Assembly: GCA_947497245.1 (NCBI GenBank)
Contig: CANMFO010000002.1
Location: 930,001-994,000, forward strand
DNA from: an uncultured Flavobacteriaceae bacterium
GTDB lineage: Bacteria > Bacteroidota > Bacteroidia > Flavobacteriales > Flavobacteriaceae
Direction of reading: 5' to 3'
DNA: 64,000 nucleotides
Shown: positions 30,157 to 51,786 of the stretch, piece after piece
How the letters are laid out: every line of letters starts with the position of its first letter
Position numbering within the stretch: position 1 is the first letter of the stretch
Translations under genes and position numbers: made by a program
The notes under the pieces: generated by a model
Told to the model about the DNA's origin: nothing
Databases searched by the model: none
The model's input: the letters and a program-made list of their open reading frames with translations, nothing else

Positions 30157-31161
30157 AGACAAGAAAAAACATTAAAATTAGAACAACTGAAAAATGAGCT
30201 TTCTTCCATATGGTTGCCAAAAGTAACAGATCAACTTTTTGAACCAGCCGTCCAATTTATGGAGGTGTTGTATACCTACAGAGAACGGTACCGCCCACTC
30301 CCAAACATCTTATTGCCTTGTGAATACGGATAATCCGCTCACATTCCCTGTAGACTCACTGTGCCCTGCACCGTCCTTCGCGAAGGAGACGGTTACATGC
30401 AATGTGGTCATCGGGTCTGCCTTGGCGGGTGATTCCGAATAGCCGACTATGGCATACATGATATCGTAGCGAAAGTTGTCCGGGTGGTTCTGGACAACCG
30501 TCCCCTGGCCGGTCAGGCTGAACAACCTACGTGGAAAGAGTGTGTTCCATTCGATGAACTTGCCTACAACGGGAATGTCCAACCAGTGGCCGTCAAAGGT
30601 CTACCGGACCTTTGAGAGCGAGGAGCTAGGTAGTGCATTGGATTCTTTAGCAGGATTACCCCCTCTTCCCGTAATCCTTTGATCTTCCCTTTACCGTGTT
30701 CTTTATTTTGACTTCAAGATTGGAACTCCAGGGCTTTCCAGCTTTCCGTAAATCAAAAACCATAATTGACATAATGGATATTCTGCTTGTAGCGACCACC
30801 GATATACCCTATTTTGTCTACTGAATACACTTTTTTCGGTTTTGATGATATAATATAGTCAGGATAGGACAAAAAACAGATAGACTGTACAATCTCGTTT
30901 TCTGAATTTTGATTCAATTGCCTACTGAAGCTAAATTAATACAGGAACTCCCGCTTATACAAGACACAGATGGTATTAAGGGTATGGGCGGTGGTGGCAC
31001 TTTTGTTTTCATTTGGTCGGTTAAAAATGTTCCTTCCTTTCATACTGTAGGCTCCCGAGCTATGAATAGGGAAAGCCTGATCCCGGAAAGCGGTATGGGA
31101 AAAGGAAGGTCTATTGCAGAAGTTTTAAATAAGATATGCACAAACCCATAAATTCAAAAAA
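30157..31161. other. Gene-poor kilobase with degenerate fragments
   Basis: On the minus strand at 30310-30582 there is a 90-residue frame (VGKFIEWNTLFPRRLFSLTG, then VVQNHPDNFRYDIMYAIVGY) that reads like a decayed protein but which I cannot name. On the plus strand, 30909-31151 holds an 80-residue frame ending RSIAEVLNKICTNP, also unrecognised. No convincing complete gene is present. Confidence 0.4.
30701..30803. repeat. Diverged tRNA-Arg downstream repeat (leftmost copy)
   Basis: Matches 51451-51556 in order and spacing: CTTTATTTTGACTTCAAGAT / TTTATTTTATTGCAAGATTG, then TTTCCAGCTTTCCGTAAA / TTTCCATCTTTCCATAAA, a CATAATTG...ATAATGG hairpin region, and TTCTGCTTGTAGCGACC versus TTCTGCTTGTAGTGACC. 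The tRNA end itself is degraded. It is the left limit of the repeated series that ends at the intact tRNA-Arg. Confidence 0.65.
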
Positions 31162-32025
31162 ATGCCAAACCCATGGACAGGGAAAGGAAATCCCTATACG
31201 AGACAAGAAGTAAGAGATAGACTGCAAGCGACATTGGATCAAAAGAAAGCCATAATCGCGGCTGGTGCCGGAACGGGAATCAGTGCAAAATTTATTGAAA
31301 AAGGAGGTGCTGACCTTTTGATCATATACAACTCCGGGAGGTTCAGAATGTCCGGACATGGTTCTACTGCCGGAATGATGGCATATGGGGATGCCAATGC
31401 CGTCGCTATGGAAATAGGAGAGTTTGAAGTGTTGCCAGTGGTGGAGGAAATTCCTGTCGTGTGCGGAGTGCACGGTAGTGACCCGAGAAGGAGAATGTGG
31501 CATTTTCTGGGCAGGGTCAAGGAAATGGGTTTTTCAGGAATCAATAACTTTCCCACCCATTCCATCATCGATGGTCATTTCAGGAATGTTTTGGAGGAAA
31601 CAGGTATGAGTTTTCAGAAAGAGGTTGAAATGGTGCGTTTGGCTTCAAAAATGGATTTGTTTTCCATCGTTTACGTAGGAAAGCCGCAAGAGGCCGTTCA
31701 AATGGCCGATGTGGGCGCCGATGCGATCATTGCCCATGTGGGAACCACCGTTGGAGGTTCTGTTGGGGTCAAGGGAGCAAGTTGTTCCTTGGAAGAGGCC
31801 GTCGAAAGGACACAAAATATTATTGAGGCGGTAAAAAAAACCAAAAAGAATACCTTTTTTCTGGCGCATGGCGGTCCCATAAACACCCCTGAGGATGTAC
31901 AGTTTGTGCTGGACAAAACGGATGCCGATGGCTTTGTAGGGGCCTCATCTTTGGAAAGAATGGGGGTTGAAGCATCCCTGACCCAATTAACACAAACTTT
32001 TAAAGCACTCACAATAAAAAGGTAG
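31162..32025 (+). CDS. Phosphoenolpyruvate-hydrolase-like TIM-barrel protein
   Basis: A 287-residue soluble protein of the PEP_hydrolase family, a TIM barrel related to PEP mutase/isocitrate lyase. Motifs include AIIAAGAGTGISAKFIEKGG, LLIIYNSGRFRMSGHGSTAG, VVCGVHGSDPRR, GFSGINNFPTHSIIDG and FLAHGGPINTPEDV. Family members often occur with a Tm-1-like ATP-binding protein in catabolic operons; that partner is absent. It begins a tight operon with a cupin (3 bp gap) and the large multidomain lipoprotein. The substrate is not known. Confidence 0.85.
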   Translation: MPNPWTGKGNPYTRQEVRDRLQATLDQKKAIIAAGAGTGISAKFIEKGGADLLIIYNSGRFRMSGHGSTAGMMAYGDANAVAMEIGEFEVLPVVEEIPVVCGVHGSDPRRRMWHFLGRVKEMGFSGINNFPTHSIIDGHFRNVLEETGMSFQKEVEMVRLASKMDLFSIVYVGKPQEAVQMADVGADAIIAHVGTTVGGSVGVKGASCSLEEAVERTQNIIEAVKKTKKNTFFLAHGGPINTPEDVQFVLDKTDADGFVGASSLERMGVEASLTQLTQTFKALTIKR

Positions 32026-32028
32026 TAA

Positions 32029-32430
32029 ATGGGTAAAAAATGGACTTTTATAAAAGAGAAGGATACGCTTTTCGAAAAAGTAGCTGGCCGGAACCATCAC
32101 TGGCATTTCCATCCCGAGACGGCCGAACATGCCAATACGCTAATGGTCAAGGTAAATATGCCGCCCGATGGATTCCATGATTTCCATAGGCATCCCCAGA
32201 TGGGTGAAATCCTGTACATTTTAAAGGGCAAAGCAGAACAGTGGGTAGAAGATGAAATGAAAATACTGGAAGCAGGAGATTCGGTCTATATAGACCCTGA
32301 TAAGGTACATGCCACATTCAACGCAGGAACAGATGATTTGGAATTCTTGGCGATTCTTGCCCCATCCGAAGGATGGGCAGCAGGGACCATCGATGAATAC
32401 ATGAATTACCCGTATTCAAATTATAAATAA
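32029..32430 (+). CDS. Small cupin-domain protein
   Basis: A 133-residue single-domain cupin. Cupin motif 1 is seen as FHDFHRHPQMGEILYILKGK, with two His and a Glu as metal ligands, and motif 2 as AGDSVYIDPDKVHATFN, with the fourth ligand His. The N-terminal HHWHFHPE adds further histidines. Such proteins bind a divalent metal and act as isomerases, dioxygenases or sugar-binding accessories. The gene starts 3 bp after the PEP-hydrolase-like gene and is followed 50 bp later by the multidomain lipoprotein. A common catabolic substrate is inferred from the operon. Confidence 0.85.
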   Translation: MGKKWTFIKEKDTLFEKVAGRNHHWHFHPETAEHANTLMVKVNMPPDGFHDFHRHPQMGEILYILKGKAEQWVEDEMKILEAGDSVYIDPDKVHATFNAGTDDLEFLAILAPSEGWAAGTIDEYMNYPYSNYK

Positions 32431-32479
32431 GCAAATAATCACAGGGACTTGGTAAAGCTCCGAATTAATATTTTGGAAT

Positions 32480-35400
32480 ATGAATATGTATAGCAATCGA
32501 TTACTTATTTTCTCCCTTTTATTGACACTCTTTACGAGCTGTGACACGAAACAGGTTCCTCTTCCAGAACTGACATATACAGATGGAGAACTTCGTATAC
32601 AGCATCCACTGAGTCCGGAAGACTCTAAAAGACACATTCAAGTACCCGAAGGGTTCGAACTAACACTTTTTGCGGCCGAACCCAATATCGTAAACCCGAT
32701 TGCTTTTAGCTGGGATGAAAAAGGGCGACTATGGGTGGTACAGTCCCAGGACTATCCGCATGGGCTTGGTAACGATGTAGGTGGAGATCGGATTACTATT
32801 TGTGAGGACACCGATGGAGATGGGAAGGCTGATAAGTTCATAGATTTTGCAACGGCACAAAACCTTTCTACGGGAATTACGGTGGTCAAAGGCGGAGCAA
32901 TTGTCGCCCAGGCCCCAAATATGATGTTCCTGGAGGACACGGACGGAGATGATAAAATGGATAAGAGTACCGTTCTTTTTGATGGCTTTGGTACCTGGGA
33001 TACCCATGCCGGCCCTTCTAGCCTTAGATATGGTTTGGATAATAAAATTTGGGGTGCGGTAGGGTATTCCGGCTTTGAGAACATTTTCGAGGGAAAAAGC
33101 GTGAGCTTTAAAATGGGGGTATTCAATTTTGGTAAAGATGGAAATTCTTTTGAACCTATTGGCCAGTTCAATAACAATACCTGGGGCCTGGGATTTAATG
33201 AAAATTTTGAGATTTTTGGATCGACGGCCAATAATAACCACGCCTGTTACGTCGGAATTCCACTGAGGTATTATGAATATTTGGAAAAAAGACCTAAGTG
33301 GGCATTGAATGCCGATTTCATCCAGGGTCATTATGAAATAAGTCCGGTCGATACCATCCCTTTGCAACAGGTAGATGTAAGGGGAGGCTATACTGCAGCT
33401 GCCGGAGCCAATTTTTACACAGCCAGGAATTACCCACAACAATATTGGAACCAGATGTACGTGAATGAACCAACGGGCCACCTGGTACATCTTTCTAAAA
33501 TAGTTAAGGAGGGTGCGGGTTATAAAGAAGTGGATGGAGGGAATATTTTTGCCAGTACAGATGCCTGGACCGCCCCTGTATTTACCGAAACCGGCCCCGA
33601 TGGTAACCTATGGGTAGCGGATTGGTACAATCCGGTCATACAACATAACCCGGATAAGCGCGGTATGGAGAACCAAATATGGAACGATGAAAAAGGAGAG
33701 GGGAACGCCCATATTAACGAGCATAGGGATAAACGGCACGGACGTATTTATATAATCAAACATGAAGATGGCAATGAGGTGGACATTAAATCCCTGAATG
33801 CCAAGGATGAAGAAGGATTGATACAGGCCCTGCAAAGCGATAATATGTTCTGGAGGACAACGGCCCAACGTATTATTGTTGAAGAAAAACTAAGTTCCCT
33901 TGTTCCCCAACTTCTTGAGTTGGTGGTCGACTCCCATAAAGATGCTTCAGGCTTTAACGGCACAGCGCTGCACGCCCTATGGACCCTGGACGGCCTCGGT
34001 GCTTTTGAATCTGACCAGAAAGCTAGGGATGTTTTGTCCAAGGCATTGAACAATGATTCATATGCCGTAAAAAGGGCCGCTTTGGAGCTTCTTCCCATTA
34101 CAGAAGATGGGGCCGAACAACTTATGGTATCCGGGCTACTGGATTCTGAGGATCTTTTGATCCGTTCAAGAGCAATTCTCAAGGCAGGGGAATTACCTGA
34201 AATCCCCTCTCTTTATGAGGCTATGGAATCTTTAAGCAAGGATGATATTATTCATACGGACAAGTGGTTAAATGCAGCTTTTAAAGTATACCATAGGGAA
34301 AAGAACTTCGAATACGTGAAGGCCGAGAATGTTCAGATCATCGTTCCTAGCTCCGCAGAGGGAAATGCGATTTGGAAATACACCCAAACAGTGCCTTCAG
34401 AAAATTGGATCCGGGCAGATTTTGAAGATGCGGCCTGGAAAAGCGGAAAAGCAAAATTCGGAGGTAAGGAAGTCCTTAAAAATACCCTTTGGGAAAAGGA
34501 AGATATTTGGTTGAGGCGCGAAATTGTAATCAACGGGGATATTGCCGAACCTGTACTTAAAATTGCCCACGATGATGACTACGAGGTATACATCAACGGG
34601 CATTTATTGCTTGCCGAAGCAGGGGCAAGTGGTGAATACAAATACATAAAACTTGATAAAGATAAGGGGAAACTCTTCAAAAAAGGGAAGAACCTGCTTG
34701 CGGTCCATTGCCATGATAATGGGGGGCAACGCTATATAGATGTAGGAATTGGCATAGAGCTTAGGCCCTCACCGGATGTGTCCTTTACCCTTAAGACGGT
34801 CAGCCAGAAAATGGCATATGACAAAACGGTATTGGAGGCAACCGTAGGGCAGATGGTAGAAATAGTCTTGGAGAATACCGATGAAATGCCACATAACCTG
34901 GTGGTTTTGGAAAAGGGGAGCTTGGCAACCTTCGGAAAAATGGTAGATGGATTCCTTAAGAACCCTGAGGCCGCAAAAATGGGCTATGTGCCAAATTCAA
35001 GAAACGTAATAGGTGCTACCCCAATGCTCGAACCCGGTGAAAAGGCTTCCATACTGTTTAAATTGCCCAACAGGCCGGGTAGATATCCCTTCGTTTGTAC
35101 TTTTCCGGGCCATTGGCGGCTTATGCAAGGGGTCATCATTGTCAATGCCCCGGGAACCTATCTTTCGGATGATAAAGATGCGCCCAATATTGCTATGATG
35201 AGCGGAGGGGGGAGTTCTCACAACTTTGTAAGGGTATTTGGTATAATGGATGGAAAGGTACTAAGCTCAGAGGGCAAGAATTCCGTGGTATATACTGAAA
35301 ACCCAAAAGAGCTAGAGCAAAATTTACAAGATGCCCAGGTGCTGCACATCTCAAACAATAAACCCATTGGGGAGAGTACCAGAAATGCAATATTTGCCCA

Positions 35401-35818
35401 GGTAAACAAAGGGATGTCCATGTTGATATGCCACCCAAGTACATGGTATAATTGGGAAGATTGGCCCCAATACAATAAGCAACTTGTGGGAGGGGGATCA
35501 AGATCACATGAGAAATTGCAGGAATTCGAGGTTCGGGTTACAAGGCCAGACCACCCTATAATGAAAGGGGTACCTGCTAGGTTTAGAATTTTTGACGAGC
35601 TATACCGCTGGGAGAAAGATCCAGGTGGTACGCCTATAGAAGTGCTCGCCATTGGTAAAAGTCTGGAAACGGGGGATGAGTTTCCGGTGGTATGGGTTGT
35701 AAAACATCCTAAAGCCAAGATAGTTGGAAATACCTTGGGCCACGATGAAAGGGCGCATAGGACAGCACCCTATAAAAGACTCTTAAAAAATAGTGTCCAA
35801 TGGGCATTAAAAAAATAG
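32480..35818 (+). CDS. Multidomain lipoprotein: propeller, HEAT, cupredoxin, ThuA
   Basis: A 1112-residue surface or periplasmic lipoprotein (signal IFSLLLTLFTSC, lipid Cys 21). In order: a PVC-type dehydrogenase propeller (HIQVPEGFELTLFAAEPNIV; ICEDTDGDGKADKFIDFATA) at about 45-420; HEAT-like repeats at about 440-600; a beta-galactosidase-like jelly roll at about 630-760 (AHDDDYEVYINGHLLLAEAG); an azurin/plastocyanin-type domain at about 780-890 with ligand pattern MPHN...FVCTFPGHWRLM, a type 1 copper site; and a C-terminal ThuA-like domain (about 910-1112, ICHPSTWYNWEDW). Many relatives end in a cytochrome c domain, which is missing here. Oxidation of a sugar or related substrate with electron transfer to copper is the likely theme, inferred from domains. 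Confidence 0.85.
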   Translation: MNMYSNRLLIFSLLLTLFTSCDTKQVPLPELTYTDGELRIQHPLSPEDSKRHIQVPEGFELTLFAAEPNIVNPIAFSWDEKGRLWVVQSQDYPHGLGNDVGGDRITICEDTDGDGKADKFIDFATAQNLSTGITVVKGGAIVAQAPNMMFLEDTDGDDKMDKSTVLFDGFGTWDTHAGPSSLRYGLDNKIWGAVGYSGFENIFEGKSVSFKMGVFNFGKDGNSFEPIGQFNNNTWGLGFNENFEIFGSTANNNHACYVGIPLRYYEYLEKRPKWALNADFIQGHYEISPVDTIPLQQVDVRGGYTAAAGANFYTARNYPQQYWNQMYVNEPTGHLVHLSKIVKEGAGYKEVDGGNIFASTDAWTAPVFTETGPDGNLWVADWYNPVIQHNPDKRGMENQIWNDEKGEGNAHINEHRDKRHGRIYIIKHEDGNEVDIKSLNAKDEEGLIQALQSDNMFWRTTAQRIIVEEKLSSLVPQLLELVVDSHKDASGFNGTALHALWTLDGLGAFESDQKARDVLSKALNNDSYAVKRAALELLPITEDGAEQLMVSGLLDSEDLLIRSRAILKAGELPEIPSLYEAMESLSKDDIIHTDKWLNAAFKVYHREKNFEYVKAENVQIIVPSSAEGNAIWKYTQTVPSENWIRADFEDAAWKSGKAKFGGKEVLKNTLWEKEDIWLRREIVINGDIAEPVLKIAHDDDYEVYINGHLLLAEAGASGEYKYIKLDKDKGKLFKKGKNLLAVHCHDNGGQRYIDVGIGIELRPSPDVSFTLKTVSQKMAYDKTVLEATVGQMVEIVLENTDEMPHNLVVLEKGSLATFGKMVDGFLKNPEAAKMGYVPNSRNVIGATPMLEPGEKASILFKLPNRPGRYPFVCTFPGHWRLMQGVIIVNAPGTYLSDDKDAPNIAMMSGGGSSHNFVRVFGIMDGKVLSSEGKNSVVYTENPKELEQNLQDAQVLHISNNKPIGESTRNAIFAQVNKGMSMLICHPSTWYNWEDWPQYNKQLVGGGSRSHEKLQEFEVRVTRPDHPIMKGVPARFRIFDELYRWEKDPGGTPIEVLAIGKSLETGDEFPVVWVVKHPKAKIVGNTLGHDERAHRTAPYKRLLKNSVQWALKK

Positions 35819-35932
35819 CGTATTCCCTCCGAATTGGATGGGGGTACCCAGTTCAGGTTCGAGGACTACTTTTTTAAAAGGTACGGTTATCGGATATAGG
35901 CTTGGCGAGTTTATATTCTATTGTTGGTAATA

Positions 35933-36802
35933 TTACTTCATACCCCTATATTTCTGCCTGTATTTAAATGGGTTTGTCTGCATAATTCCTTTAAATTTTT
36001 TGTTGAAATTGGATAGGGTCTTATAGCCGCACTCATGTGAAATCTGTAGGATGGAAAGATCATCCTTTTTTATAAGTTTACAGGCCAAGCTAATTCTTAG
36101 TTCCGCCACAAAATCGGAAAAAGTTTTGTTGGTATGGGACTTGAAATATCGGCTAAAAGAGGTGGGGGACAGATTCGCTAATGCAGCTACGTCGGCCAGC
36201 CGGATATCTCCTCGAAAATTATCCAAAATATATGCGTGTATTCGCTGCATCCGTTTTGAATCTGAATCTGTTATGGTGTTTATGTACCCCTCTTTGTTGA
36301 TGAATACAAGATCATCGGTCTTTGATAATAGATCCAATATATTTAATAATGAAAGTACCCCATCGAAACCCTGCTGCTCCAACATACAAAGCATTATCTC
36401 CTGGACCGTATCCCTAAGATCATTTTTTATTTCGAGGCCCCTATGCGCCCTGTCCAGCAAATCTTTGATGCCTTCCATTTCCTCCTTTCCCAGGAACGTC
36501 TCTCCCATGAAATCCAAGGAAAAATAAATGACCACGCATCTTGTGGTCAATCCCCGATTTTCAAAATATACTTCATCGTTGCGCCACACATGAGGTAGGT
36601 TTGACCCTGTCAATACCATGTCGCCTGCCTCAAAGTGCCTAATATCATCACCCACAAATCTAGTGCCGGTACCTTTGAGAACTACCACCAATTGGTATTC
36701 TTGATGAAAATGCCAGTATGGGTCAAAATGAGGGGCCACTAAATCATAAATAGTATACGATTTTGATGCTTTTATAGGAAGTTTACGTATGGCCTGCTTC
36801 AT
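35933..36802 (-). CDS. AraC-family regulator with N-terminal cupin
   Basis: A 289-residue regulator. The N-terminal cupin sensing domain includes HFDPYWHFHQEYQLVVVLKG, FEAGDMVLTGSNLPHVW. The C-terminal AraC DNA-binding domain has two helix-turn-helix motifs: DIRLADVAALANLSPTSFSR then YFKSHTNKTFSDFVAELRIS, and LSILQISHECGYKTLSNFNK with FKGIMQTNPFKYRQKYR. It lies convergent to the PEP-hydrolase/cupin/ThuA operon, ending about 115 bp from it, and is the likely regulator of that operon in response to a sugar-like ligand. That link rests on position alone. Confidence 0.9.
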   Translation of the reverse strand: MKQAIRKLPIKASKSYTIYDLVAPHFDPYWHFHQEYQLVVVLKGTGTRFVGDDIRHFEAGDMVLTGSNLPHVWRNDEVYFENRGLTTRCVVIYFSLDFMGETFLGKEEMEGIKDLLDRAHRGLEIKNDLRDTVQEIMLCMLEQQGFDGVLSLLNILDLLSKTDDLVFINKEGYINTITDSDSKRMQRIHAYILDNFRGDIRLADVAALANLSPTSFSRYFKSHTNKTFSDFVAELRISLACKLIKKDDLSILQISHECGYKTLSNFNKKFKGIMQTNPFKYRQKYRGMK

Positions 36803-36930
36803 TATAACATTGATAAGTCTTAAATATAATCATTATTGATATAATAAAGTCGGTATTGGATCTGTTCCCCAAGCATCCTACCAGGCAAGATTGCTCAGCT
36901 TGTTCGTGATCCTAATAAACCCACCTTTGC

Positions 36931-37064
36931 AAATAAGAAACCTCGAGCTACCGCTCTGGTACTTTATTTCATTCCAAAACTTCAAACTGGGCCTGATTTT
37001 CCCATAAAATAAAGAACCACGTCCTTTAGACATGGTTTGTTGTTTGTAGTGAGCTCGACAGGGT
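36931..37064. repeat. tRNA-Arg 3'-end copy with downstream flank, between blocks A and B
   Basis: A 134-bp segment aligned with 51595-51727: AAATAAGAAAC, TTTATTTCATTCCAAAACTT / TTTTATTCCAAGGCTT, CATAAAATAAAGAACCACG, then GTAGTGAGCTCGACAGGGTT, a copy of the tRNA-Arg 3' end (TGACCTCGACAGGATT) with substitutions. The rest of the gap 36803-37425 is non-coding, with GTTGACCGAATTGTTGACGG at about 37124. Confidence 0.7.
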
Positions 37065-37425
37065 TCTATCGGCTGATAGAAACCCATGGTTTCACACGTT
37101 TTGAAACAACTTTACAAAATCTGTTGACCGAATTGTTGACGGTCTATTTGATGGTAAATGGTGTCATTTGACTTTCATTTCAAGGTTAAGAATCCCAAGT
37201 TCCAAAAGCAATCGATTTTACAAACCGCCCAAGTCAAGAATCAACAATCGTTCATTTTATGTGACCAAACCTATAGGTTGATCCAAATATTTTTCAAATG
37301 ATATTTAGAGTTTAAAAGAGGGTGGATTTAAAACAACCAACACCTTATTTCGGATTCATGGGAACCCAAGGATAGCAAAAGAGGAGAACTGGTCCAACAC
37401 CCAACAATGAGTTTTATATTTTCTG

Positions 37426-39798: not shown

Positions 39799-39971
39799 AT
39801 GTTGTGTTTAATTATTTTGTTGAATGGGGACAAGCCGTCCTTTTTGATAATTTGGATCAAAACTATCCCAGTGGGCTAGGAATTAAAAGGGATTTGAAGT
39901 AAGGCGGGGCATAACTGCAGGGAATGGGAGAGAACACCGCTCGGAAGTAGTTATCTTGCAATAGGAAATTT

Positions 39972-42044: not shown

Positions 42045-42112
42045 AAACCTTGCAAATCATAGATTTTGCAAGGTTTTTAATTCGTTTGGAGTTTCCTCCC
42101 AGTGACCTCGAA
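42045..42112. repeat. Terminator hairpin plus tRNA-Arg 3'-end fragment
   Basis: AAACCTTGCAAA (42045-42056) pairs with TTTGCAAGGTTT (42065-42076) and a T-run follows. Twenty-four bases on, AGTGACCTCGA (42101-42111) repeats the end of tRNA-Arg; the rest of the tRNA end is lost. Hairpin plus tRNA end is the same order as at the intact tRNA. Confidence 0.55.
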
Positions 42113-42365
42113 GGGACAGAGTTCAACCTTTTTGAACAAAGATATTGATCTGATTATTTCGAAATCCCAGCAGTTGAAATTTTCAAATATGGATAATTAA
42201 AATAGGTCGACGGTCTTTTTTACTTACCTGCTAAGTCAAATATTTTGCAACAAATCTTTACTTTTTTTGTTACAAAAAATTTAGATGATGTGATTGGCGT
42301 TTCTGAAAAAATAAAAAAACGTTTTGGGAGTAAGTCTAAAGGGGCAGATTAAATTTACTTTCTTA

Positions 42366-42528
42366 GAGACTGTTTTGAAATATGTGATTAGAATTCTTTA
42401 TAGGCTATTTTTGATGCATTATGAGGCAAAATTTTGAAGCATAGCCTTAGTTACGGTTTAAAATTTTAACGAAAATAAGGCGCAAAAAGAGGCATAAAAA
42501 AATAATTGACATATTTCAAAACAGTCTC
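42366..42528. mobile_element. 163-bp MITE with 20-bp perfect terminal inverted repeats
   Basis: GAGACTGTTTTGAAATATGT (42366-42385) is exactly inverted at 42509-42528, and the element is flanked by TTA on both sides (42363-42365 and 42529-42531), a 3-bp target duplication. It has no coding capacity. Ends beginning GAG and a TNA duplication fit IS5-family (IS1031/ISL2-like) elements, so the parent may be such an IS elsewhere in the genome; that is inference. Confidence 0.85.
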
Positions 42529-42683
42529 TTAGTTCCATAAAAGGTCAATTAACAAAACTACTAAAAGAGACCACAAATGGGACATTCAAGGAAAATAATT
42601 TTTACTACGGGAAAACAGACTCATAAATCGGCCGTTTTATGGCACAATACATTACTATCTATTGTAAAGTCAATTTTCATATT

Positions 42684-42709
42684 TGTAGTATTTGATTTGT
42701 TTTACTACA
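42684..42709. promoter_or_regulatory. Inverted repeat upstream of the second padR, probable operator
   Basis: TGTAGTA (42684-42690) and TACTACA (42703-42709) lie 22 bp before the PadR start. The TGTAG half-site is shared with the repeat before the first PadR gene at 21963-22007. Confidence 0.55.
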
Positions 42710-42731
42710 TTTACAATAAACAAATAAAAGA

Positions 42732-43079
42732 ATGAAAGGAACAAATTTAGGAGAGTTTGAGGAATTGATCCTTCTGGTGGCCGGTGTGCTATACCCCGAT
42801 GCCTATGGTCTGTCCATTAGGAAAGAGGTTATGCAGCAATCAGAACGCAGTGTAGCTATCGGAGCCGTACATGCTGCTCTGAGTAGGTTGGAAAATAAAG
42901 GATATTTGAAATCCCATCTTGCCGATGCTACTCACGAAAGAGGTGGACGAAGAAAAAAACTTTTTGTTATTACTTCAGCAGGAAAAAGAGCACTCGAAAA
43001 AAATCGGATCCTTAGGAATGCACTTTGGAATCAAATCCCTGAAATAGCCTGGACAGGTTTGACTTATGGCGGTAAATAA
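42732..43079 (+). CDS. PadR-family transcriptional regulator (second copy)
   Basis: A 115-residue winged-helix PadR protein: KGTNLGEFEELILLVAGVLY, LSIRKEVMQQSERSVAIGAV, HAALSRLENKGYLKSHLADA, RGGRRKKLFVITSAGKRAL. It is clearly paralogous to the regulator at 21559-21900 (shared GEFEE..LL..G and RGGRRK motifs). Its 3' end overlaps the FtsX-type permease gene by 14 bp, implying translational coupling. The inverted repeat at 42684 is a likely self-operator. Local sequence is more AT-rich than the rest of the window, in line with transfer. Confidence 0.92.
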   Translation: MKGTNLGEFEELILLVAGVLYPDAYGLSIRKEVMQQSERSVAIGAVHAALSRLENKGYLKSHLADATHERGGRRKKLFVITSAGKRALEKNRILRNALWNQIPEIAWTGLTYGGK

Positions 43080-45705
43080 AAAATCACCAGATCCCACTCC
43101 TCCAGTTTGGGGGGAACGTTTTCTGAAATGGTTCTGTAAGGACCATTTACTGGAACCCATTCAAGGAGATCTTTATGAGCAGTTCCTGATTGACAGGACA
43201 AGTCATGGCAATCGAATAGCAAACTTTTTGTATTACCGTCATATTATTAATTTTTTAAGACCATTTGCCATTAAAAATATTTCTTCAAATTCAACAACAA
43301 TGTTTAAACTTTTTTATAAAACCTTTGCAAGAAATTTATTAAGAGATAAGCTGCACGCCATCTTAAACATTGTAGGACTCGCTTTGGGATTTACAGCGTT
43401 TCTATATATTGTCACTTATATTTTTCATGAAACAAGTTATGATAGTTTTCATGAAAAGTCCGAAAGAATTTATAGGTGTGTACAGCATATAAAGTTAGGC
43501 GATGAACCGATTTATGGATCACAAGCCGAACCTGTGCTCGCAACCACTGCTAAAAATGAACTAGCGGAGGTAGAAGATGCTGTAAGATTGTATTTACGAA
43601 ATGATGTAACTACAGAATACAAAGACAACAAGTTTACGGAAGAAGAAATCTGGTATGCTGATAGCAACATATTTAGAATATTTGATTTCAATTTGCTGGA
43701 AGGAAATCCTGAAACAGCGTTGTCAAGACCTAATTCAATTTTACTCACTAAAAAGGCGGCCCTTAAATATTTTGGGAATGAAGATGCAATTGGAAAATCC
43801 CTACTATTAAATTTAGATAAGGAACAGTATGTAGTAACCGGTATTTTGGAAGATCTACCCATGAACTCTCATTTGCAATTCGATTTTTTGGCTTCATTTT
43901 CAACGCTTCCAAGAAGCAAAGATCTTGAATGGTCCAATACAAGTACTTACACTTACATACTAGCAAAAGCTAACACAGATTTCGAAAATTTCAGCGAAAA
44001 CTACAATACCTTTTTAACGCAAAAATATATACCCATTATCGAACAAGCTACCGGTATGTCGTTCTCTGATTTTAAAAATCACGGAAGTTTTATTAACTTT
44101 TTTTTACAACCAATAGAAGATATTCATTTAAGCTCGACCCATCCATCAGCATCGAACAACGCTGGAAATATCCGATATTTGATCATCCTGTTTATCACTG
44201 GAATGTTTATCTTGATTATCGCTTGCTTTAATTTTATCAACCTTAGTACTTCTAGGGCTTCATTAAGAGCAAAAGAAATTGGTATTAAAAAAATTATTGG
44301 TTCTACAAGAAGAACAATAATATATCAAATTCTCACAGAGACTTTTTTTAATTGCCTTATTGCGCTATTGATCTCAATTGCATTACTTCTTCTTGTATTA
44401 CCTATGATCAACAATTATTCTGAAACGGTCATCGAGGCGGAATTTCTGCTTAACAAATTTATATTAATCGCTATCTGCACAATGCTAATAACTGTCACCT
44501 TTTTAGCTGGGTGTTACCCGGCATTATACATTACTCGATTTAAGCCAGCACAAATAATCAAGGGAAAGTTTGGAAATTCAGGAAAAAAATCACCTATACG
44601 GGGTGGTTTGGTTGCGTTTCAGTTTACAGTTTTCATCATACTAATTTTCTGTACCATTATTATTAACAAGCAAATATCCCTTTTACAAAATCAGAATCCT
44701 GGATTCAACAAGAACAACGTTCTGGTAATTGAAAAAGCGAACCTATTAGGCACCCACAGAAATAGTTTCAAAAAGGAAATAGCCAAAAACTCGGGAGTAC
44801 TTTCTGCATCCTACTCTTCATCAATACCTTCCCAAAATCATGGTAGTGGCGCTTTTGGAATGAAGGGAAGTGAAAAATGGTTTGCCATGGATCGAATGAA
44901 TGTGGATCATGATTTTCAAAATACACTTAAAACTCAGATGTTGGAGGGGCGTTTTTTTATCGATAACAGTGAATCTGAAATCAGTAATGTGATCATCAAT
45001 GAGGAGGCCGCCAAAATATTGGGATGGCCAGAGATCAACGAAAAACAGATCTATATTATTGATGATGGAAAAAAGCATTATTTCAATGTAGTTGGCATTA
45101 TGAAGAATTTCCACCTAAAATCATTACGTGAAAAATCTGACCCTTTAGTACTGAATTTAGTAAACACCGGTCAATATCTTTCAATTAGACTACGACCTGG
45201 CGAATACAGAACAGTTATTGGGGCAGCAAAAAATCAGTGGGAAAAATTTAAACGTGATGCTCCTTTTGAGTATTTTTTCCTTGATAAGGCTTTTGATGCC
45301 CAATACAAATCTGAAATACGGCTTGGGAAAATTATTGGATTGTTCACAATAATTGCCATCATTATCGCCTGTTTGGGTTTGTTTGGATTAGTATCTTTCA
45401 CTGCTGCCCAAAGACGAAAAGAGATTGGTGTTCGGAAGATAAATGGGGCAACAATATCAGATATTTTAACCATGTTGAATAAAGACTTTGTAAAATGGAT
45501 AGTTATGGCTTTTGGATTTGCAAGCCCAGTGGCATGGTATATTATGAGTAAATGGCTCGAAGATTTTACCTATAAAACAGCATTAAGTTGGTGGACATTC
45601 GTGTTGGCAGGATCAAGCGCATTGGTCATTGCTTTAGTTACCGTAAGCTGGCAATCCTATAAAGCGGCTAGCAAAAATCCGGTTGAAGTATTAAGGTATG
45701 AATAA
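43066..45705 (+). CDS. FtsX/MacB-like ABC permease with prefix domain (second copy)
   Basis: An 879-residue paralog of the permease at 18126-20858. The prefix domain is at residues 1-75 (FLKWFCKDHLLEPIQGDLYE), followed by the first half (FARNLLRDKLHAILNIVGLA; AKEIGIKKIIGSTRRTIIYQ) and the second (TAAQRRKEIGVRKINGATIS), ending VSWQSYKAASKNPVEVLRYE, as FtsX halves usually do. It has the standard eight membrane helices in two sets and two large periplasmic domains. No ATPase gene is adjacent; it may use one from elsewhere. It overlaps its PadR regulator by 14 bp. Marked A/T-ending codon bias sets it apart from the first copy. Confidence 0.92.
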   Translation: MAVNKKSPDPTPPVWGERFLKWFCKDHLLEPIQGDLYEQFLIDRTSHGNRIANFLYYRHIINFLRPFAIKNISSNSTTMFKLFYKTFARNLLRDKLHAILNIVGLALGFTAFLYIVTYIFHETSYDSFHEKSERIYRCVQHIKLGDEPIYGSQAEPVLATTAKNELAEVEDAVRLYLRNDVTTEYKDNKFTEEEIWYADSNIFRIFDFNLLEGNPETALSRPNSILLTKKAALKYFGNEDAIGKSLLLNLDKEQYVVTGILEDLPMNSHLQFDFLASFSTLPRSKDLEWSNTSTYTYILAKANTDFENFSENYNTFLTQKYIPIIEQATGMSFSDFKNHGSFINFFLQPIEDIHLSSTHPSASNNAGNIRYLIILFITGMFILIIACFNFINLSTSRASLRAKEIGIKKIIGSTRRTIIYQILTETFFNCLIALLISIALLLLVLPMINNYSETVIEAEFLLNKFILIAICTMLITVTFLAGCYPALYITRFKPAQIIKGKFGNSGKKSPIRGGLVAFQFTVFIILIFCTIIINKQISLLQNQNPGFNKNNVLVIEKANLLGTHRNSFKKEIAKNSGVLSASYSSSIPSQNHGSGAFGMKGSEKWFAMDRMNVDHDFQNTLKTQMLEGRFFIDNSESEISNVIINEEAAKILGWPEINEKQIYIIDDGKKHYFNVVGIMKNFHLKSLREKSDPLVLNLVNTGQYLSIRLRPGEYRTVIGAAKNQWEKFKRDAPFEYFFLDKAFDAQYKSEIRLGKIIGLFTIIAIIIACLGLFGLVSFTAAQRRKEIGVRKINGATISDILTMLNKDFVKWIVMAFGFASPVAWYIMSKWLEDFTYKTALSWWTFVLAGSSALVIALVTVSWQSYKAASKNPVEVLRYE

Positions 45706-45988
45706 GAGGCATCTATTGCACTTTCTCTTAATACCTAGTTCTCTAAAACCAACCTTTTAAGGTACTCTATTGATGTTTCTTTCATTCATGCTTTTAACTG
45801 CCTCTTTACGAAACTTCATTAGACGATATGCAGCGTTCCCTGTTTTTGGGAAATACTACATTTATAATTCTTGAAGTATCAATTAATTTCTGGAAGTGAT
45901 AAAAAAATAAATTCAATAAAAGTTCAAACCTCTAAAGCACTGAAAACAAGTAATATATCTCTAAAATTAAATATTTAGGTAAAAGCAA

Positions 45989-46056
45989 AAAGCTCTCTAA
46001 ATATTTGATTTAAAGAGCTTTATAAAAAGTGTGACCTCGGCAGGATTCAAACCTGT
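45989..46056. repeat. Hairpin plus 25-nt tRNA-Arg 3'-end copy
   Basis: AAAGCTCT (45989-45996) pairs with AGAGCTTT (46014-46021). Then TGACCTCGGCAGGATTCAAA plus CCTGT (46032-46056) matches 24 of 25 nt of the tRNA-Arg end at 51713-51737. Otherwise 45706-46157 is AT-rich and shows no gene. Confidence 0.8.
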
Positions 46057-46157
46057 CTTGTAAGTGTCAATATTTTCAAGGATCTTAGAATGCCAAAATT
46101 TATGAGGTAGCTAAATAGCTGTCTTTTTCATTGAATCAGATTGTTATAAAATGGATT

Positions 46158-46376
46158 TCAATCAAGTATAAAGGTATAATAAATACCTACAAAATGCTTA
46201 GAGTTCTTTAACTCATCTAAATATGTTTCAAAATCTTCGAGCGTATTGTGTGCCAAAGAACTTGGGTATTCATAATTCCAAATTTTTAAAATTTCTTCTT
46301 TTTGGAAAGCACTTAGTTCATTTGTTTTTTCAATGACCCTTGCTATAAGTAAAAATAGAATTATAAATATAATCAT
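46158..46376 (-). pseudogene. Remnant of a GNAT-type acetyltransferase N-terminus
   Basis: A 72-residue frame with KTNELSAFQKEEILKIWNYE, then YPSSLAHNTLEDFETYLDEL and KNSKHFVGIYY. This matches the first third of flavobacterial GNAT acetyltransferases ('KE.IL.LWN.EYP..L...TLE.FE.YL..L....H'). The acetyl-CoA-binding core is missing, and the N-terminus has a hydrophobic stretch not expected for the family. It lies near the left end of block D, which suggests leftover cargo. Confidence 0.5.
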
Positions 46377-46565
46377 TGTCCTAGTTAATGTGATAGTTGT
46401 GTTTCAGCGATTTAGGTTATAAGGCACTATTTATACTTATGGACTGATTATACCATTCATAGAACTTAATACACCATCTTAACGGAATGGCTCCCAGTAC
46501 ATTTGTGATGTGATTGTTCAACAATATTGATTGAACACATATTAACTACTAAATGTATCATTCTT

Positions 46566-47690
46566 ATGGGGTCAAAAAACTTTTCTCGCCGAAATTTCAT
46601 TCAAAAAGGGACACTGGCGACTATTGCTGCTACCACATTATCCGGTAGTAGTTTTGGTCAGTCGTCGGATATAAAAGAATTGAATACCAATAAAAATACA
46701 AGATTCAATTATCCATCCAAAGCGGCCAAAAAGCTAACTAAGCTTTTGAATATTGAATTTCCTATAATTCAGGCACCAACGGCAGGAGTTATCAGCAGCT
46801 CATTTACTGCGGCAGTTTCTAATAATGGAGGTCTAGGTGCATTGCCATTGAGTTGGTCAGAACCAGATTTTGCAATTAAACAAATTGAAGCTGTCACAGA
46901 CAAAACTAAAAACTCCTACTTCGCAAATTTCGTTTTGAATTTTGAACCTAAAGCATTTGACAATGCCATAAAATACGGAGTCCCTATTATCCAATTTTCT
47001 TGGGGTATGCCAACAAAGGAAATGGTCGCTAAAATGAAAGTCGCAAAAGTAGTATTAGGAATTCAAGTGACTAGCGAAGCAAGTGCAAAAGCGGCTTTAG
47101 ATTTAGGTGCTGATTATTTGGTTTGTCAAGGTACAGAAGCAGGAGGTCATGTACATGCATCAAGACCATTAGCAGAAGCATTAGAACGTGTTTTAAAAGT
47201 TGCTGGAGATATTCCTGTAGTTGCTTCGGGCGGTATAGCTACAGGACATAAAATGCGGGAATATATGCAAATGGGAGCAGCTGGTGTTGTTATGGGGTCA
47301 AGATTTGTTGCCACCGTAGAAAGCCAAGGACATGAAGTTTATAAAAAATCTTTGGTAAGTGCCAAAGCAGAAGACACTGTACTTACAACTTGTATGGATA
47401 AAGGTTTTGGAAATACAACCCACCGTATTTTAAGAAACTCAACCTTTGAAATGTGGGAGTCTGCAGGTTGTCCTGCAATAGGAAACAGACCTGGGGAAAA
47501 AGATATCATAGTTAAAGTTAGGGAAGATTATGAAGTGGAACGCTACAGTATCAATTCTCCAGGAAGGCAATATGCTGGAGATATAAAAGCGATGGCGAAC
47601 TATGCTGGTAAAAGTGTTAGCGACATACATGATATTCCAACAGTAGCAGAATTGATAAAGCGCATTTGGAGCGAATTCAATCAACAATAG
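46566..47690 (+). CDS. Nitronate-monooxygenase-family protein with Tat-like signal, copy 1
   Basis: A 374-residue FMN-dependent TIM barrel of the nitronate monooxygenase (2-nitropropane dioxygenase) family. Motifs: LLNIEFPIIQAPTAGVIS at the N-terminus, VCQGTEAGGHVHASRPLAEA with the GTEAGGH flavin/catalytic segment, and VVASGGIATGHKMREYMQMG for phosphate binding. It starts with a twin-arginine-like sequence, SRRNFIQKGTLATIAATTLS, so export by Tat is plausible although family members are usually cytosolic. The ATG at 46566 is chosen over 46527 because it gives this signal and matches the paralog. A second copy follows 32 bp later. Confidence 0.85.
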   Translation: MGSKNFSRRNFIQKGTLATIAATTLSGSSFGQSSDIKELNTNKNTRFNYPSKAAKKLTKLLNIEFPIIQAPTAGVISSSFTAAVSNNGGLGALPLSWSEPDFAIKQIEAVTDKTKNSYFANFVLNFEPKAFDNAIKYGVPIIQFSWGMPTKEMVAKMKVAKVVLGIQVTSEASAKAALDLGADYLVCQGTEAGGHVHASRPLAEALERVLKVAGDIPVVASGGIATGHKMREYMQMGAAGVVMGSRFVATVESQGHEVYKKSLVSAKAEDTVLTTCMDKGFGNTTHRILRNSTFEMWESAGCPAIGNRPGEKDIIVKVREDYEVERYSINSPGRQYAGDIKAMANYAGKSVSDIHDIPTVAELIKRIWSEFNQQ

Positions 47691-47722
47691 AAGTCTAATT
47701 AGTAATCTAAAAACACAAAAAA

Positions 47723-48853
47723 ATGTCAAACAATGGATTTTCTAGACGCAATTTTATTCAAAAAGGAGCACTCGCGGGTATTGCCGCTTCGAGCATGGTT
47801 GGTAGCAATTTTGGTCAATCATCGGTTATGTCAAAAGCAGCAGATAAAGAACACTCAAAATTCAATTACCCATCACTTGCGACGAAAAAATTAACCAAGT
47901 TGCTAAATATTAAATACCCAATTATACAAGCTCCCACGGCAGGTGCTGTTACTACAGCATTGGTATCCGAAGTAACAAAATCTGGCGCTTTAGGCGGATT
48001 GCCTCTTACATGGACCACTCCTCAAGATTCGCATAAAAGAATTAAAGATGTTCAAGAAATTACGAATGGCTCATTCTATGCAAATTTTGTATTGAATTTT
48101 GAACCTAAAGCTTTGGACAGTGCAATAAAATCCGGAATAAGAATCATACAATTTTCATGGGGTATACCATCCAAACAAATCATACAAAAAATTAAGAGTG
48201 CCAATATTATTTTGGGCATACAAGTGACTAGTGAAGATAGTGCAACATCTGCCATCAATGCGGGAGCAGATTATCTTGTTTGTCAAGGAACCGAAGCTGG
48301 CGGTCATGTACATGCTTCAAGACCACTGCATGAAGCTTTGGAAGAAGTACTGGCTGTGGCGGATAACATTCCAGTAGTAGCATCGGGAGGAATTGCGACA
48401 GGTGAAGACATCTATAAATATTTGTCACTTGGAGCTGCAGGCGTTGTCATGGGATCACGATTTGTAGCCACTCAGGAAAGTGGTGCACACCCAAAATATA
48501 AAGAAGCTTTACTTAATTCAGTAGCTAAAGACACTGTTTTCACAGTGTGTTTAAATAAAGGGTGGAGTAATGCAACACATCGAATTATACGAAATAAAAC
48601 ATTTAAAACATGGGAAGCAGCCGGTTGTCCTCAAGAAGGAAACAGGCCTAATGAAGGTGAAGTGTTGGCAACATATAAAAATAGTGGAGTAACTGTTAAA
48701 AGATATGAAGGAAACGTCCCAAATACAGATATGGAAGGTAAGGTCGAGGAACTTGGCATGTATGCCGGTAAAGGGGTGGGGCATATAAACGATATTCCAA
48801 AAGTAACAGAATTAGTAGAACGAATTTGGAAAGAATTCCAAGGTAAACAATAA
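47723..48853 (+). CDS. Nitronate-monooxygenase-family protein with Tat-like signal, copy 2
   Basis: A 376-residue paralog of the preceding gene with the same plan: Tat-like SRRNFIQKGALAGIAASSMV, the N-terminal FMN site KYPIIQAPTAGAVTTALVSE, CQGTEAGGHVHASRPLHEAL, VVASGGIATGEDIYKYLSLG and GVVMGSRFVATQESGAHPKY. The catalytic His of the GTEAGGH segment is kept. The two copies differ mainly in the substrate-lid part after residue 250 and in the N-terminal barrel strands. Tandem duplication inside the AT-rich block D is the simplest origin. Confidence 0.85.
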   Translation: MSNNGFSRRNFIQKGALAGIAASSMVGSNFGQSSVMSKAADKEHSKFNYPSLATKKLTKLLNIKYPIIQAPTAGAVTTALVSEVTKSGALGGLPLTWTTPQDSHKRIKDVQEITNGSFYANFVLNFEPKALDSAIKSGIRIIQFSWGIPSKQIIQKIKSANIILGIQVTSEDSATSAINAGADYLVCQGTEAGGHVHASRPLHEALEEVLAVADNIPVVASGGIATGEDIYKYLSLGAAGVVMGSRFVATQESGAHPKYKEALLNSVAKDTVFTVCLNKGWSNATHRIIRNKTFKTWEAAGCPQEGNRPNEGEVLATYKNSGVTVKRYEGNVPNTDMEGKVEELGMYAGKGVGHINDIPKVTELVERIWKEFQGKQ

Positions 48854-48869
48854 TTAAAAACAAGAAATA

Positions 48870-49430
48870 ATGAACACGGTAAACACAACATTAAACGGCT
48901 TTGATTTAGAAGCCATAGAGAACACAGTAACAGCATTAAAAGGGAATCCTAAAATTGCTGAATTCAAATTCAAAGCAACAAACAAATGGGAATCTGGCCC
49001 AAGAAACACAAGTCAAATACAAGGGTTTTATGGAGCTTGTCAAGAAGATAGAACAAGGGAAGCACCTTTTGTATGTAGTACAGATATGCCAACCGTTCTA
49101 AACGGCACAGATGTAGCACCAAGTCCGCCAGAGTTCTTGTTACACACGTTAGCAAGCTGTATTACAACATCAATGATGCTATTAGCATCTGCAAACGGTA
49201 TAGGAATAGATGAGGTTACAGTAAAAGTTGAAGGTGATTTAAATCTTAATGGGTTTTTAGGTCTTGATTCTTGTATCCTTAAAGAGTATGAACAAATAAA
49301 GGTATCAATTGATGTAGGTGGTGATTTGAGCTTTGTAAAAAGAATGAAGTTATTAGAGTTAGCTAAAAAATCACCTATCTATAATACGATACTAAACCCA
49401 GTACCAGTAAAAATAGCCTTATCAGCATAA
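48870..49430 (+). CDS. OsmC-family protein
   Basis: A 186-residue OsmC/Ohr-family protein. Motifs include the first Cys region (GFYGACQEDRTREAPFVCST) and the helix FLLHTLASCITTSMMLLASA with the second Cys, then VTVKVEGDLNLNGFLGLD and the closing helix LLELAKKSPIYNTILNPVPV. Family members with both cysteines reduce organic hydroperoxides. The gene is 16 bp after the second nitronate-monooxygenase gene and 28 bp before the MetY-like gene, so it is likely part of one AT-rich operon linked to redox or sulfur metabolism. Confidence 0.85.
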   Translation: MNTVNTTLNGFDLEAIENTVTALKGNPKIAEFKFKATNKWESGPRNTSQIQGFYGACQEDRTREAPFVCSTDMPTVLNGTDVAPSPPEFLLHTLASCITTSMMLLASANGIGIDEVTVKVEGDLNLNGFLGLDSCILKEYEQIKVSIDVGGDLSFVKRMKLLELAKKSPIYNTILNPVPVKIALSA

Positions 49431-49446
49431 ATTAATAACTACATGA

Positions 49447-50768
<1,322 letters not shown>

Positions 50769-50769
<1 letters not shown>

Positions 50770-50951
50770 TGGGTGGTGGTTTAAAAAATGTCTTGGTAGG
50801 TGCCAAAATCAATCAAGACATTCCTTTCGAACATGATATTTCATGGCCGAAGGACTACAGGTCCTATCATGGGTTCACCATTGGGGCATTCACGTTTTGC
50901 GTAGGGCTGTTTATGTTGGTCTGGGACCTAGTAACAATATTGACAGCATAA
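50769..50951 (+). CDS. Short membrane-protein frame, possible fragment
   Basis: A 60-residue frame overlapping the last base of metY. It has a C-terminal hydrophobic helix (FTIGAFTFCVGLFMLVWDLV). Its stop TAA overlaps the ATG of the next small gene (TAATG), a typical coupling arrangement. The N-terminus is not family-like, and it may be the 3' end of a truncated gene. Codons here are more GC-rich than in metY, so a junction lies nearby. Confidence 0.35.
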
Positions 50952-51172
50952 TGGACCTGTACGAATTCCAAAACCTTAAAACAGAAGACCAATGGGACGA
51001 ACTTTGGGAGAAAGGAAAATATGCGGGCAGTTTTACCTCGGAAGACTTGGCCATAGAACTATATACTGTTTATGGCTTTTATGTAGAGGTAGAATTCGAT
51101 ACCCGAAATGGCTCGACCTTGGGAATCAATGCATTCGAGGACGGGCCGAGACTGGAGAAGTACGCCGATTGA
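50951..51172 (+). CDS. Conserved small protein of Bacteroidota, unknown function
   Basis: A 73-residue protein: MDLYEFQNLKTEDQWDELWE, KGKYAGSFTSEDLAIELYTV, YGFYVEVEFDTRNGSTLGIN, ending LEKYAD. The pattern 'DQWD.LWE.G.F.GSF....LY...FYVEV' recurs in short uncharacterised Bacteroidota proteins. It is coupled to the preceding frame and lies at the right end of block D. No function is known to me. Confidence 0.65.
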   Translation: MDLYEFQNLKTEDQWDELWEKGKYAGSFTSEDLAIELYTVYGFYVEVEFDTRNGSTLGINAFEDGPRLEKYAD

Positions 51173-51346
51173 CACCGCAATTGATTTCCAAACCTGCCAA
51201 TGAAAAAAGTTAAATATGACCAATACTACCAAAACAGCCGTGAAGATAATTGGATTTATCGCCTATAAAACCTTCGGAAATAGGAATCGATGAATTGTGG
51301 TTTGAAAAATTAAAAGATTTGACACAATTTTGGCACAAAAAATGCG

Positions 51347-51700
51347 AAACCCCCAGTAAACACTGAGGGTTTTGTGACCTCGACAGGATTACCTTCGGTT
51401 TTCCCGTGAATTCCCCTTTGCAAATAGAAAGCCTTATGGCTTCGCCAAACCTTTTATTTTATTGCAAGATTGGAAAGCATTAGCTTTCCATCTTTCCATA
51501 AAACAAAAAAAACCATTACTTGCGTAATGGACTTTCTGCTTGTAGTGACCTCGACAGGATTTTCAGGGAACATCCTGAGTAAACTCTCTTCGATAAATAA
51601 GAAACTTTGCAGCTTGCGCTGCTTGTTCTTCATTTTATTCCAAGGCTTCAAACTGCGTTTGGCTTTTCATAAAATAAAGAACCACGCCATTGGCGTGGTT
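51347..51700. repeat. Two extra tRNA-Arg 3'-end copies with hairpins, left of the intact tRNA
   Basis: TGACCTCGACAGGATT occurs at 51375-51390 and 51546-51561, identical to the end of the intact tRNA-Arg at 51713. Each is preceded by a different hairpin: AAACCCCCAGT/ACTGAGGGTTT (51347-51372) and CCATTAC/GTAATGG (51513-51530). A third hairpin, ACCACGCCA/TGGCGTGGT (51681-51699), precedes the intact tRNA end. Spacers of about 155 bp between copies resemble each other (TTTTATTTTATTGCAAGATT; CATTTTATTCCAAGGCTTC). Read on the minus strand these hairpins lie after the tRNA, where its terminator belongs. Confidence 0.8.
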
Positions 51701-51712
51701 TCTTGCTTAATG

Positions 51713-51786
51713 TGACCTCGACAGGATTCAAACCTGTAACCTTCTGAGCCGTAATCAGATGCGCTATTCAGTTGCGCCACGAGGCC
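51713..51786 (-). tRNA. tRNA-Arg(ACG)
   Basis: On the minus strand the cloverleaf begins GGCCTCGTGGCGCAACTGAA. Acceptor stem GGCCTCG pairs with CGAGGTC (one G-U), the anticodon stem is TCTGA/TCAGA with loop TTACGGC giving anticodon ACG, and the T-arm is ACAGG-TTTGAAT-CCTGT. The discriminator is A, and CCA is not encoded. Partial copies of its 3' end lie at 51546, 51375, 46032, 42102 and 37050, all in the same orientation. Confidence 0.95.

Follow-up and report, generated by a model that had tools for sequence, protein, structure and literature searches.

A probable integration hotspot behind a tRNA-Arg(ACG) gene of an uncultured Flavobacteriaceae bacterium, with integrase-less blocks and folded noncoding tails

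The DNA analyzed here, hereafter the window, is a stretch of 64,000 nucleotides (nt) from an uncultured Flavobacteriaceae bacterium (GCA_947497245.1; genome G000, 5.25 Mb in 34 contigs), corresponding to positions 930001-994000 of contig C2 (CANMFO010000002.1). At its heart is a tRNA-Arg(ACG) gene on the minus strand (51712-51786), the integration target in what follows, whose conserved 5' neighbor is apt (51917-52429). The 3' end of this tRNA, TGACCTCGACAGGATT, which lies at 51713 in the gene itself, recurs exactly at 51546 and 51375 (17-nt copies running from T-loop to 3' end, 51545-51561 and 51374-51390, plus strand), with one mismatch at 46032, where the copy extends to 27 nt (46030-46056, plus strand), and with two mismatches at 37050. 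About 10 nt of it (GTGACCTCGA) are common to a site at 42102. An earlier note on this DNA had reported all these repeats, together with a diverged flank copy at 30701, and each is present, the last one coinciding with a degenerate noncoding element at 30677-30791. When up to three mismatches are allowed, TGACCTCGACAGGATT has five matches including the gene itself, against 0.40 expected, and since none of 100 shuffles reached five, chance recurrence can be rejected. As the note had also stated, the copies share one orientation, with five forward matches (gene included) and no reverse match over 109 kb (C2:885000-994000) at the same threshold, and each is accompanied on its low-coordinate side by a hairpin of its own, as read from the sequence. 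As is characteristic of islands, they are tRNA 3' fragments displaced to the 3' side of the gene with their orientation kept. However, the six extra sites, although all real, are not the equivalent marks that they had been taken for. The sites at 42102 and 46032 mark where integrative elements end, while those at 51546, 51375, 37050, and 30797 end four copies of one repeated structured element, which we call the tail. We consider it likely that the 3' side of tRNA-Arg(ACG) acts as a hotspot of integration, with DNA building up outward from the gene, that two of the blocks stacked there (B1 and B2) are integrase-less members of element families, and that four of the copies end folded tails. The earlier reading is thus partly supported: its core, serial accretion without integrases, is correct, but its account of the tail copies is wrong.

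The two sides of the tRNA gene differ markedly across relatives. We clustered the genes of 87 relative loci together with the G000 locus, genomes G002 and G004 each being in twice. Besides apt, the widely shared clusters (33, 31, 31, 22, and 22 loci) are all on the apt side, while the most widespread cluster on the left of the tRNA is found in just nine loci. The apt side is conserved across genera, and the opposite side is variable. Of the 80 apt-containing loci that were retrieved, 60 carry a minus-strand tRNA-Arg with anticodon ACG to the left of this gene, with 9 nt to 9.9 kb of sequence available beyond the tRNA; 12 of these 60 show an extra same-strand copy of their own tRNA end (at most two mismatches), compared with one on the other strand, and the extra copies match the local tRNA variant. 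At two loci (L056 and L057), two whole tRNA-Arg(ACG) genes stand in tandem, 213 and 226 nt apart.

Comparison of related genomes at the locus, which the earlier note had proposed, puts sizes on this variability. The distance marker was a neighboring, putatively YeeE-like gene. In G000 it is separated from the tRNA by 92 kb, and among the congeners the separation ranges from 0.25 kb (G005) through 7 kb (G002), 15 kb (G004), and 25 kb (G001) to 96 kb (G003). The distance was measurable in these six of ten genus genomes: gene and tRNA are on separate contigs in G007 and G008, the apt locus was not found in G006, and the gene in G009 has stops and is far from the tRNA. A 774-aa gene considered as the conserved left neighbor was set aside, its matches beyond G005 having at most 46% identity and being located elsewhere. 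Nearly empty and heavily occupied versions of one site are therefore seen within the genus. Relative to G005, the left part of the window is extra DNA, and the graded sizes favor gain over loss, which supports serial insertion. Together with the one-sided conservation and with two blocks whose ends recur at tRNA genes, this bears out the proposal that blocks entered one after another at this tRNA. The stack also lacks integrases, as had been supposed: PF00589 (tyrosine integrase) has no match in the 92-kb interval (C2:889-982 kb), and ten matches elsewhere in the genome. Steps in GC content are seen at 36-37 kb and 42 kb of the window.

Block B1 (37066-42101, ~42% GC) encodes an outer-membrane β-barrel protein, a histidine kinase, and a LytTR response regulator. 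Its right end (41955-42110, plus strand), made up of TTGACCG repeats and a hairpin, defines element family 1. A query covering these repeats, the hairpin, and the tRNA end that follows (41955-42125) was matched in 31 of 299 Flavobacteriaceae genomes, own included, with up to 97% identity; three of the 31 match only at the 24 nt of the start of family 2, five only at the hairpin, and 23 (own included) more fully. We inspected 20 of the 38 places listed. On the far side of the right end, 17 of these have a tRNA, of seven kinds (Arg ACG, TCG, and TCT, Asp, Lys, Pro, and Val), the element standing directly at the tRNA in L256, L258, and L259, for example. Just inside the right end, 13 have a tyrosine integrase (12 of 405-419 aa and one partial, of 232 aa), and of the seven loci without one, three (L250, L251, and L252) are truncated where a contig begins, so that an integrase could not have been seen there. 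The one family-1 integrase that was scanned has all of the Arm-DNA-bind_5, SAM-like, and catalytic domains (PF17293, PF13102, and PF00589); these arm-binding tyrosine integrases of Bacteroidota are present in family-1 relatives but absent from the blocks of the window. Elements at L264-L269 have similar right ends at tRNA-Asp, Lys, Pro, and Val, so related integrases have switched target tRNA.

B1 has the family-1 succession of direct repeats, hairpin, and tRNA end, but the place of the ~410-aa integrase is occupied by the LytTR response regulator. Its left end (37116-37180, plus strand), with TTGACCG/TTGACGG repeats and ATTTGACTTTCAT, is weaker evidence than its right end. Both ends are matched in the congener G002, where they lie 1.8 kb apart (77% over 69 nt for the left end, 81% over 105 nt for the other) around one 198-aa open reading frame (ORF) with no Pfam match. 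Because both ends are matched and the integrase is replaced by LytTR, we read B1 as a probable integrase-less relative of family 1 that has kept both ends. The histidine kinase of its cargo was found at E <= 1e-60 in one of 100 genomes of the family, its own.

Block B2 (42102-46030, ~34% GC) carries genes for a PadR regulator and a MacB/FtsX-type permease. Its left end (42102-42330, plus strand) begins in the shared GTGACCTCGA and codes for a conserved short peptide, while its right end (45930-46030, plus strand) has a hairpin, AAGCTCT...AGAGCTT, and is bounded by the 27-nt copy of the tRNA end. When five end pieces of the blocks were searched as a joint query against the same 299 genomes, 12 genomes matched. 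The left end of B2 is found in G238 (twice, 84% and 79%), G309, G099, G196, G019, G074, and partly G224, and the right end in G238, G019, G059, and G309. Several of these are complete elements, which define family 2. The one in G059, 7.3 kb long and carrying anti-sigma, sigma, and TonB-receptor-type genes, lies directly at tRNA-Arg(TCG). G238 has two complete elements in a stack (5.8 and 11.9 kb), the inner one at tRNA-Arg(TCG), and G309 has a 16-kb element with another left end immediately after it and no tRNA gene in the stretch inspected. The peptide encoded by family-2 left ends, of the type VTSKGQSSNFLKEDIDLIISKS, begins at the GTG of the tRNA end; it was seen in the window at 42102-42197 and at L289, L291, L292, L293-L296, L298, and L299. 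A search for it gave nothing in phages and a single plasmid match, with E = 4. B2 is thus probably an integrase-less member of a second element family, both of its ends recurring in other genera. Within its left part (42362-42532), 24-nt terminal inverted repeats, 96% complementary and 123 nt apart, resemble a miniature inverted-repeat transposable element. CIMEs are elements that keep their att sites, have lost their recombination genes, and are mobilized in trans. B1 and B2 have kept their ends, with no PF00589 integrase in the 92-kb interval, and may move in trans in a CIME-like manner.

The remaining copies belong to the tail, which has a body of ~125 nt and was described by a covariance model, R1, of that body without the tRNA end. 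All four tails of the window are on the minus strand. Tail uB (51588-51711, 95.9 bits) adjoins the tRNA 3' end and is followed by uA (51416-51544, 105.1 bits); U2 (36925-37048, 107.8 bits) lies 14.7 kb from the tRNA and has a degenerate tRNA end at 37049-37065. These three were training sequences. The fourth, U1, is degenerate and 21 kb from the tRNA, and the model, from whose training set it was absent, recovers it with an E value of 1.4e-5. The stretch from 51375 to 51713 has no ORF of at least 90 aa, and the two copies next to the tRNA bound no gene block. At E <= 1e-3 no match is seen between uA and uB, although both have matches among tails of other genera.

A single structure of 48 pairs accommodates eleven long units; for 26 of these pairs, one or more of the sequences carry changes at both positions. 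Tail units were found at 23 of 94 tRNA-Arg genes in the fetched loci, a set enriched for units since some loci were fetched because of them; they comprise 34 segments, two of which are whole tRNA duplications. Some units are of a shorter type, ~113-130 nt with a different body (e.g., L050, L117, L122, L174, and L255), and were left out of R1. Near-identical tandem units occur at the single loci L050, L048, and L255. At E <= 0.001, R1 matches 54 of 149 genomes of the family, own included. When 198 genomes were drawn from the whole class, 22 had a match, 20 of them from other families. With the curated Rfam thresholds, tRNA alone reaches threshold in 29000-53000 and in 51340-51800, so that a known RNA family was rejected as the identity of the tail. 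Elsewhere in the same genome (L019, C3:628000-637175), a ~7.5-kb element with an integrase match lies at tRNA-Arg(TCT), with a ~45-nt tRNA copy reaching the anticodon loop on one side and near-identical tails at both ends, as if it had carried a tail along.

Tails keep company with tRNA genes. We inspected 79 sense-strand R1 matches from 28 of the 30 loci of the family search and 40 further regions, two of the 79 being training units. The count excludes overlaps on the antisense strand, repeated instances of a single place, and the two weak matches in L322 and L324. A same-strand tRNA or tmRNA gene adjoins 50 of the 79 (Arg 23, Val 8, Pro 4, Phe 4, Tyr 3, tmRNA 3, Ala 2, Met 2, and Lys 1). Likewise, seven of nine class-wide loci, one of which (L376) is from the same family, have a match adjoining a tRNA (Asp, Leu twice, Val twice, Pro, and Cys). 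In 30 of the 79, the 17 nt preceding the tail recur within 90 nt after it with at most three mismatches; when the upstream ends were shuffled 200 times, the count averaged 5.65 and never exceeded 13. A sequence complementary to the local T-stem comes after the tail body in 35 of the 67 cases open to testing (20.4 on average and at most 32 under permutation), or in 22 of 35 versus 10.6 when the stems CAGG and AAGG are omitted. For tRNA-Arg units, the T-stem partner is spaced 15-16 nt in 17 of 30 (permutation P ~0.001).

The folding of the tail is conserved as well. Across 92 distinct R1 matches, 94.8% of cells pair versus 69.5% after shuffling, and two-sided changes are seen in 761 cells versus 210.5. 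All 33 pairs show two-sided change, and the covariation score of 0.683 compares with 0.06-0.12 when partners are slid. This shows that one strand of the tail folds, whether as RNA or as single-stranded DNA, which covariation does not tell apart.

What lies between the tails and the two element blocks is less clear-cut. B3 (46058-51373, 36-40% GC) encodes two nitronate-monooxygenase-type proteins, OsmC, an O-acetylhomoserine sulfhydrylase-type protein, and a small ORF. Its right end (51319-51373, plus strand) has direct repeats TTGACACAA/TTGGCACAA (51319-51338) and a hairpin, stops at the tRNA-end copy at 51374-51390, and is, with the tRNA end included, 73% identical over 74 nt to an end beside tRNA-Arg(ACG) in the congener G007. 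The two nitronate-monooxygenase-type genes are adjacent and related (46527-48853, 74-76% DNA identity in parts), a tandem duplication. B0 (30800-36880) lies between the two displaced tails and encodes PEP-hydrolase-like, cupin, and DUF7133/cupredoxin/ThuA proteins and an AraC regulator; element ends were not identified in it. The earlier count of at least four blocks goes beyond what is shown: B1 and B2 are demonstrated as elements and B3 is a possible third, while the evidence for B0 as a fourth is the tails that flank it.

Could every copy be the attachment scar of a separate island, as the earlier note had it? Orientation, position, and the unrelated gene content between copies agree with this view. 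However, it is contradicted for the two proximal copies by the absence of any substantial ORF there, and the segments in question belong to a structured family found at Arg, Val, Pro, Phe, Tyr, Ala, Met, Lys, Asp, Leu, and Cys tRNA and at tmRNA. A covarying noncoding family beside so many kinds of tRNA led us to reject a uniform scar model for the tail copies, and as a general account we find it very improbable. Local duplication had been offered as the alternative. As spelled out here, every copy of the tRNA 3' end came, terminator included, from slippage or unequal exchange, and the blocks of genes arrived by other routes. Duplication does fit some of the near-identical tandem units at other loci, and it agrees with the match between extra copies and the local tRNA variant and with the whole tRNA-Arg genes found in tandem in two genomes. 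It leaves unexplained the sites at 42102 and 46032, whose flanks are complete elements in other genera, some of them at tRNA genes, as well as the one-sided expansion from 0.25 to 96 kb, and it sits badly with two tails that match those of other genera better than each other. We regard duplication by itself as unlikely. More serious, though still doubtful in our judgment, is the idea that the tail is a functional RNA under selection (serving as pre-tRNA trailer and terminator and bearing a T-arm-like 3' hairpin) and that the tRNA-end copy is part of this function rather than a mark of insertion. The strong covariation speaks for it, as do the position directly after a tRNA in most places inspected, within the family and class-wide, and a last hairpin that follows the T-stem of the local tRNA. 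Yet tails are patchy in their presence, both among genomes of the family and among tRNA-Arg genes even in the unit-enriched set; the tRNA-end copies are decayed or absent in many places; and the first hairpin is terminator-like, so that transcription may rarely extend through much of the tail.

Several observations weigh against the hotspot-and-tail interpretation that we prefer. No extra tRNA-end copy is seen at 48 of the 60 apt-linked loci, within the sequence covered. Loss in G005 could account for part of the distance difference, and the comparison is across the genus rather than between empty and partial sites of one species, so the block boundaries given here are putative insertion breakpoints. 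A family-2 recombinase was not found with a home-made tyrosine-integrase profile in nine regions, of which three hold complete elements, other recombinase types being outside that profile. The ends of B3, tRNA end left out, and the left piece of B0 have no match at E <= 1e-4 in the other genomes of the 299-genome set. As for the tails, 29 of 79 have no detected adjoining tRNA gene, some of these being second tandem copies or displaced tails preceded by a tRNA end only; 49 of 79 have no good 17-nt copy; and the T-stem test dropped 12 of the 79 places. A terminator follows 10 of 30 downstream copies in a strict scan (24 of 365 random windows). Finally, two-sided change is seen in 25.2 of the 33 pairs even after shuffling, and pair counts are inflated because alignment A4 had been fitted to the structure of the model; nevertheless, the size of the covariation effect is hard to produce by model fitting alone.

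If the hotspot interpretation is right, elements would use the tRNA 3' end, or a copy of it, as their site of recombination, each newcomer supplying its own terminator and displacing older material from the tRNA. Tails still beside the gene would offer decoys in the form of their exact tRNA-end copies, and the right end of B3 does lie at the outermost of these. Tails left behind, U1 and U2, would mark earlier positions of the tRNA end, so serial insertion gains support from an unexpected side. The tail itself may spread by small insertions, each duplicating 17 target nucleotides, or, alternatively, by tandem duplication through template switching. It may have a function and may be mobile, and it might be that tails shield the tRNA. 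An element placed beyond tail units is also seen at tRNA-Arg(TCT) of G000, where the units are of the long type, and at L252 and L255, where they are of the short type.

Accretion at a tRNA is of a known kind. The Islander paper (PMC4383910) describes tRNA 3' fragments as marking island ends, arrays of islands at one tRNA, and a class with crossover in the T-loop or at a junction; candidates without an integrase or shorter than 2 kb are rejected, and four tandems of at least three are given. The window differs in that its stacked blocks have no integrase and are interleaved with noncoding tails. Most of the stack would escape an island finder that demands an integrase and sets a lower size limit. 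The work on the Riemerella anatipestifer 10K island (PMC6764341) reports a tyrosine-integrase island downstream of an Arg-tRNA, tested for both integration and excision by its authors; it has its own integrase, and its 53-nt direct repeat and its content of 12 ORFs differ from what is found here.

The tail family, in contrast, is below all Rfam thresholds and was not found in the literature searched. Titles and abstract openings, mostly of non-subscription papers, yielded no match for E. coli-type repeats or for repeats or structured RNAs downstream of tRNA genes in Bacteroidetes, and nothing matching decoy attachment sites at tRNA genes; the inspected passages of PMC2864571 and PMC8040213 name no such tail element. 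The tail could be a structured RNA absent from Rfam. The family is the larger point of this work, as it would explain, in a way open to testing, why the 3' ends of tRNA genes in these bacteria precede copies of themselves, and tails may account for the landing sites of integrases at heavily used tRNA genes.

We put forward, tentatively and as a conjecture, that an unnamed family of ~110-190-nt elements, spread through this genome's class of Bacteroidota, inserts directly behind almost any tRNA or tmRNA, duplicates the 17 nt from T-loop to 3' end, brings a terminator, and stacks; that the duplicated ends act as decoys taking islands in place of the tRNA; and that the tyrT repeats of E. coli are an independent case of the same process. 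R1 has no match to the E. coli tyrV region at E <= 0.01, so no homology of the repeat bodies is apparent, and the E. coli repeats were inspected at a single locus, whereas flavobacterial tails at many kinds of tRNA share one covarying body. The architecture is nonetheless common to both, consisting in E. coli tyrV as in the window of tandem units that each contain a tRNA 3' end from the T-loop onward (RttR type). Downstream of tyrV in E. coli K-12 (L370), exact copies of the last 19 nt of the tRNA are found at +159, +337, and +515, in keeping with the 178-bp period of these repeats, and one more lies between tyrT and tyrV; the tyrT/tyrV/rttR repeats start at the AATCC of the T-loop, which is the same boundary as in the flavobacterial tails.

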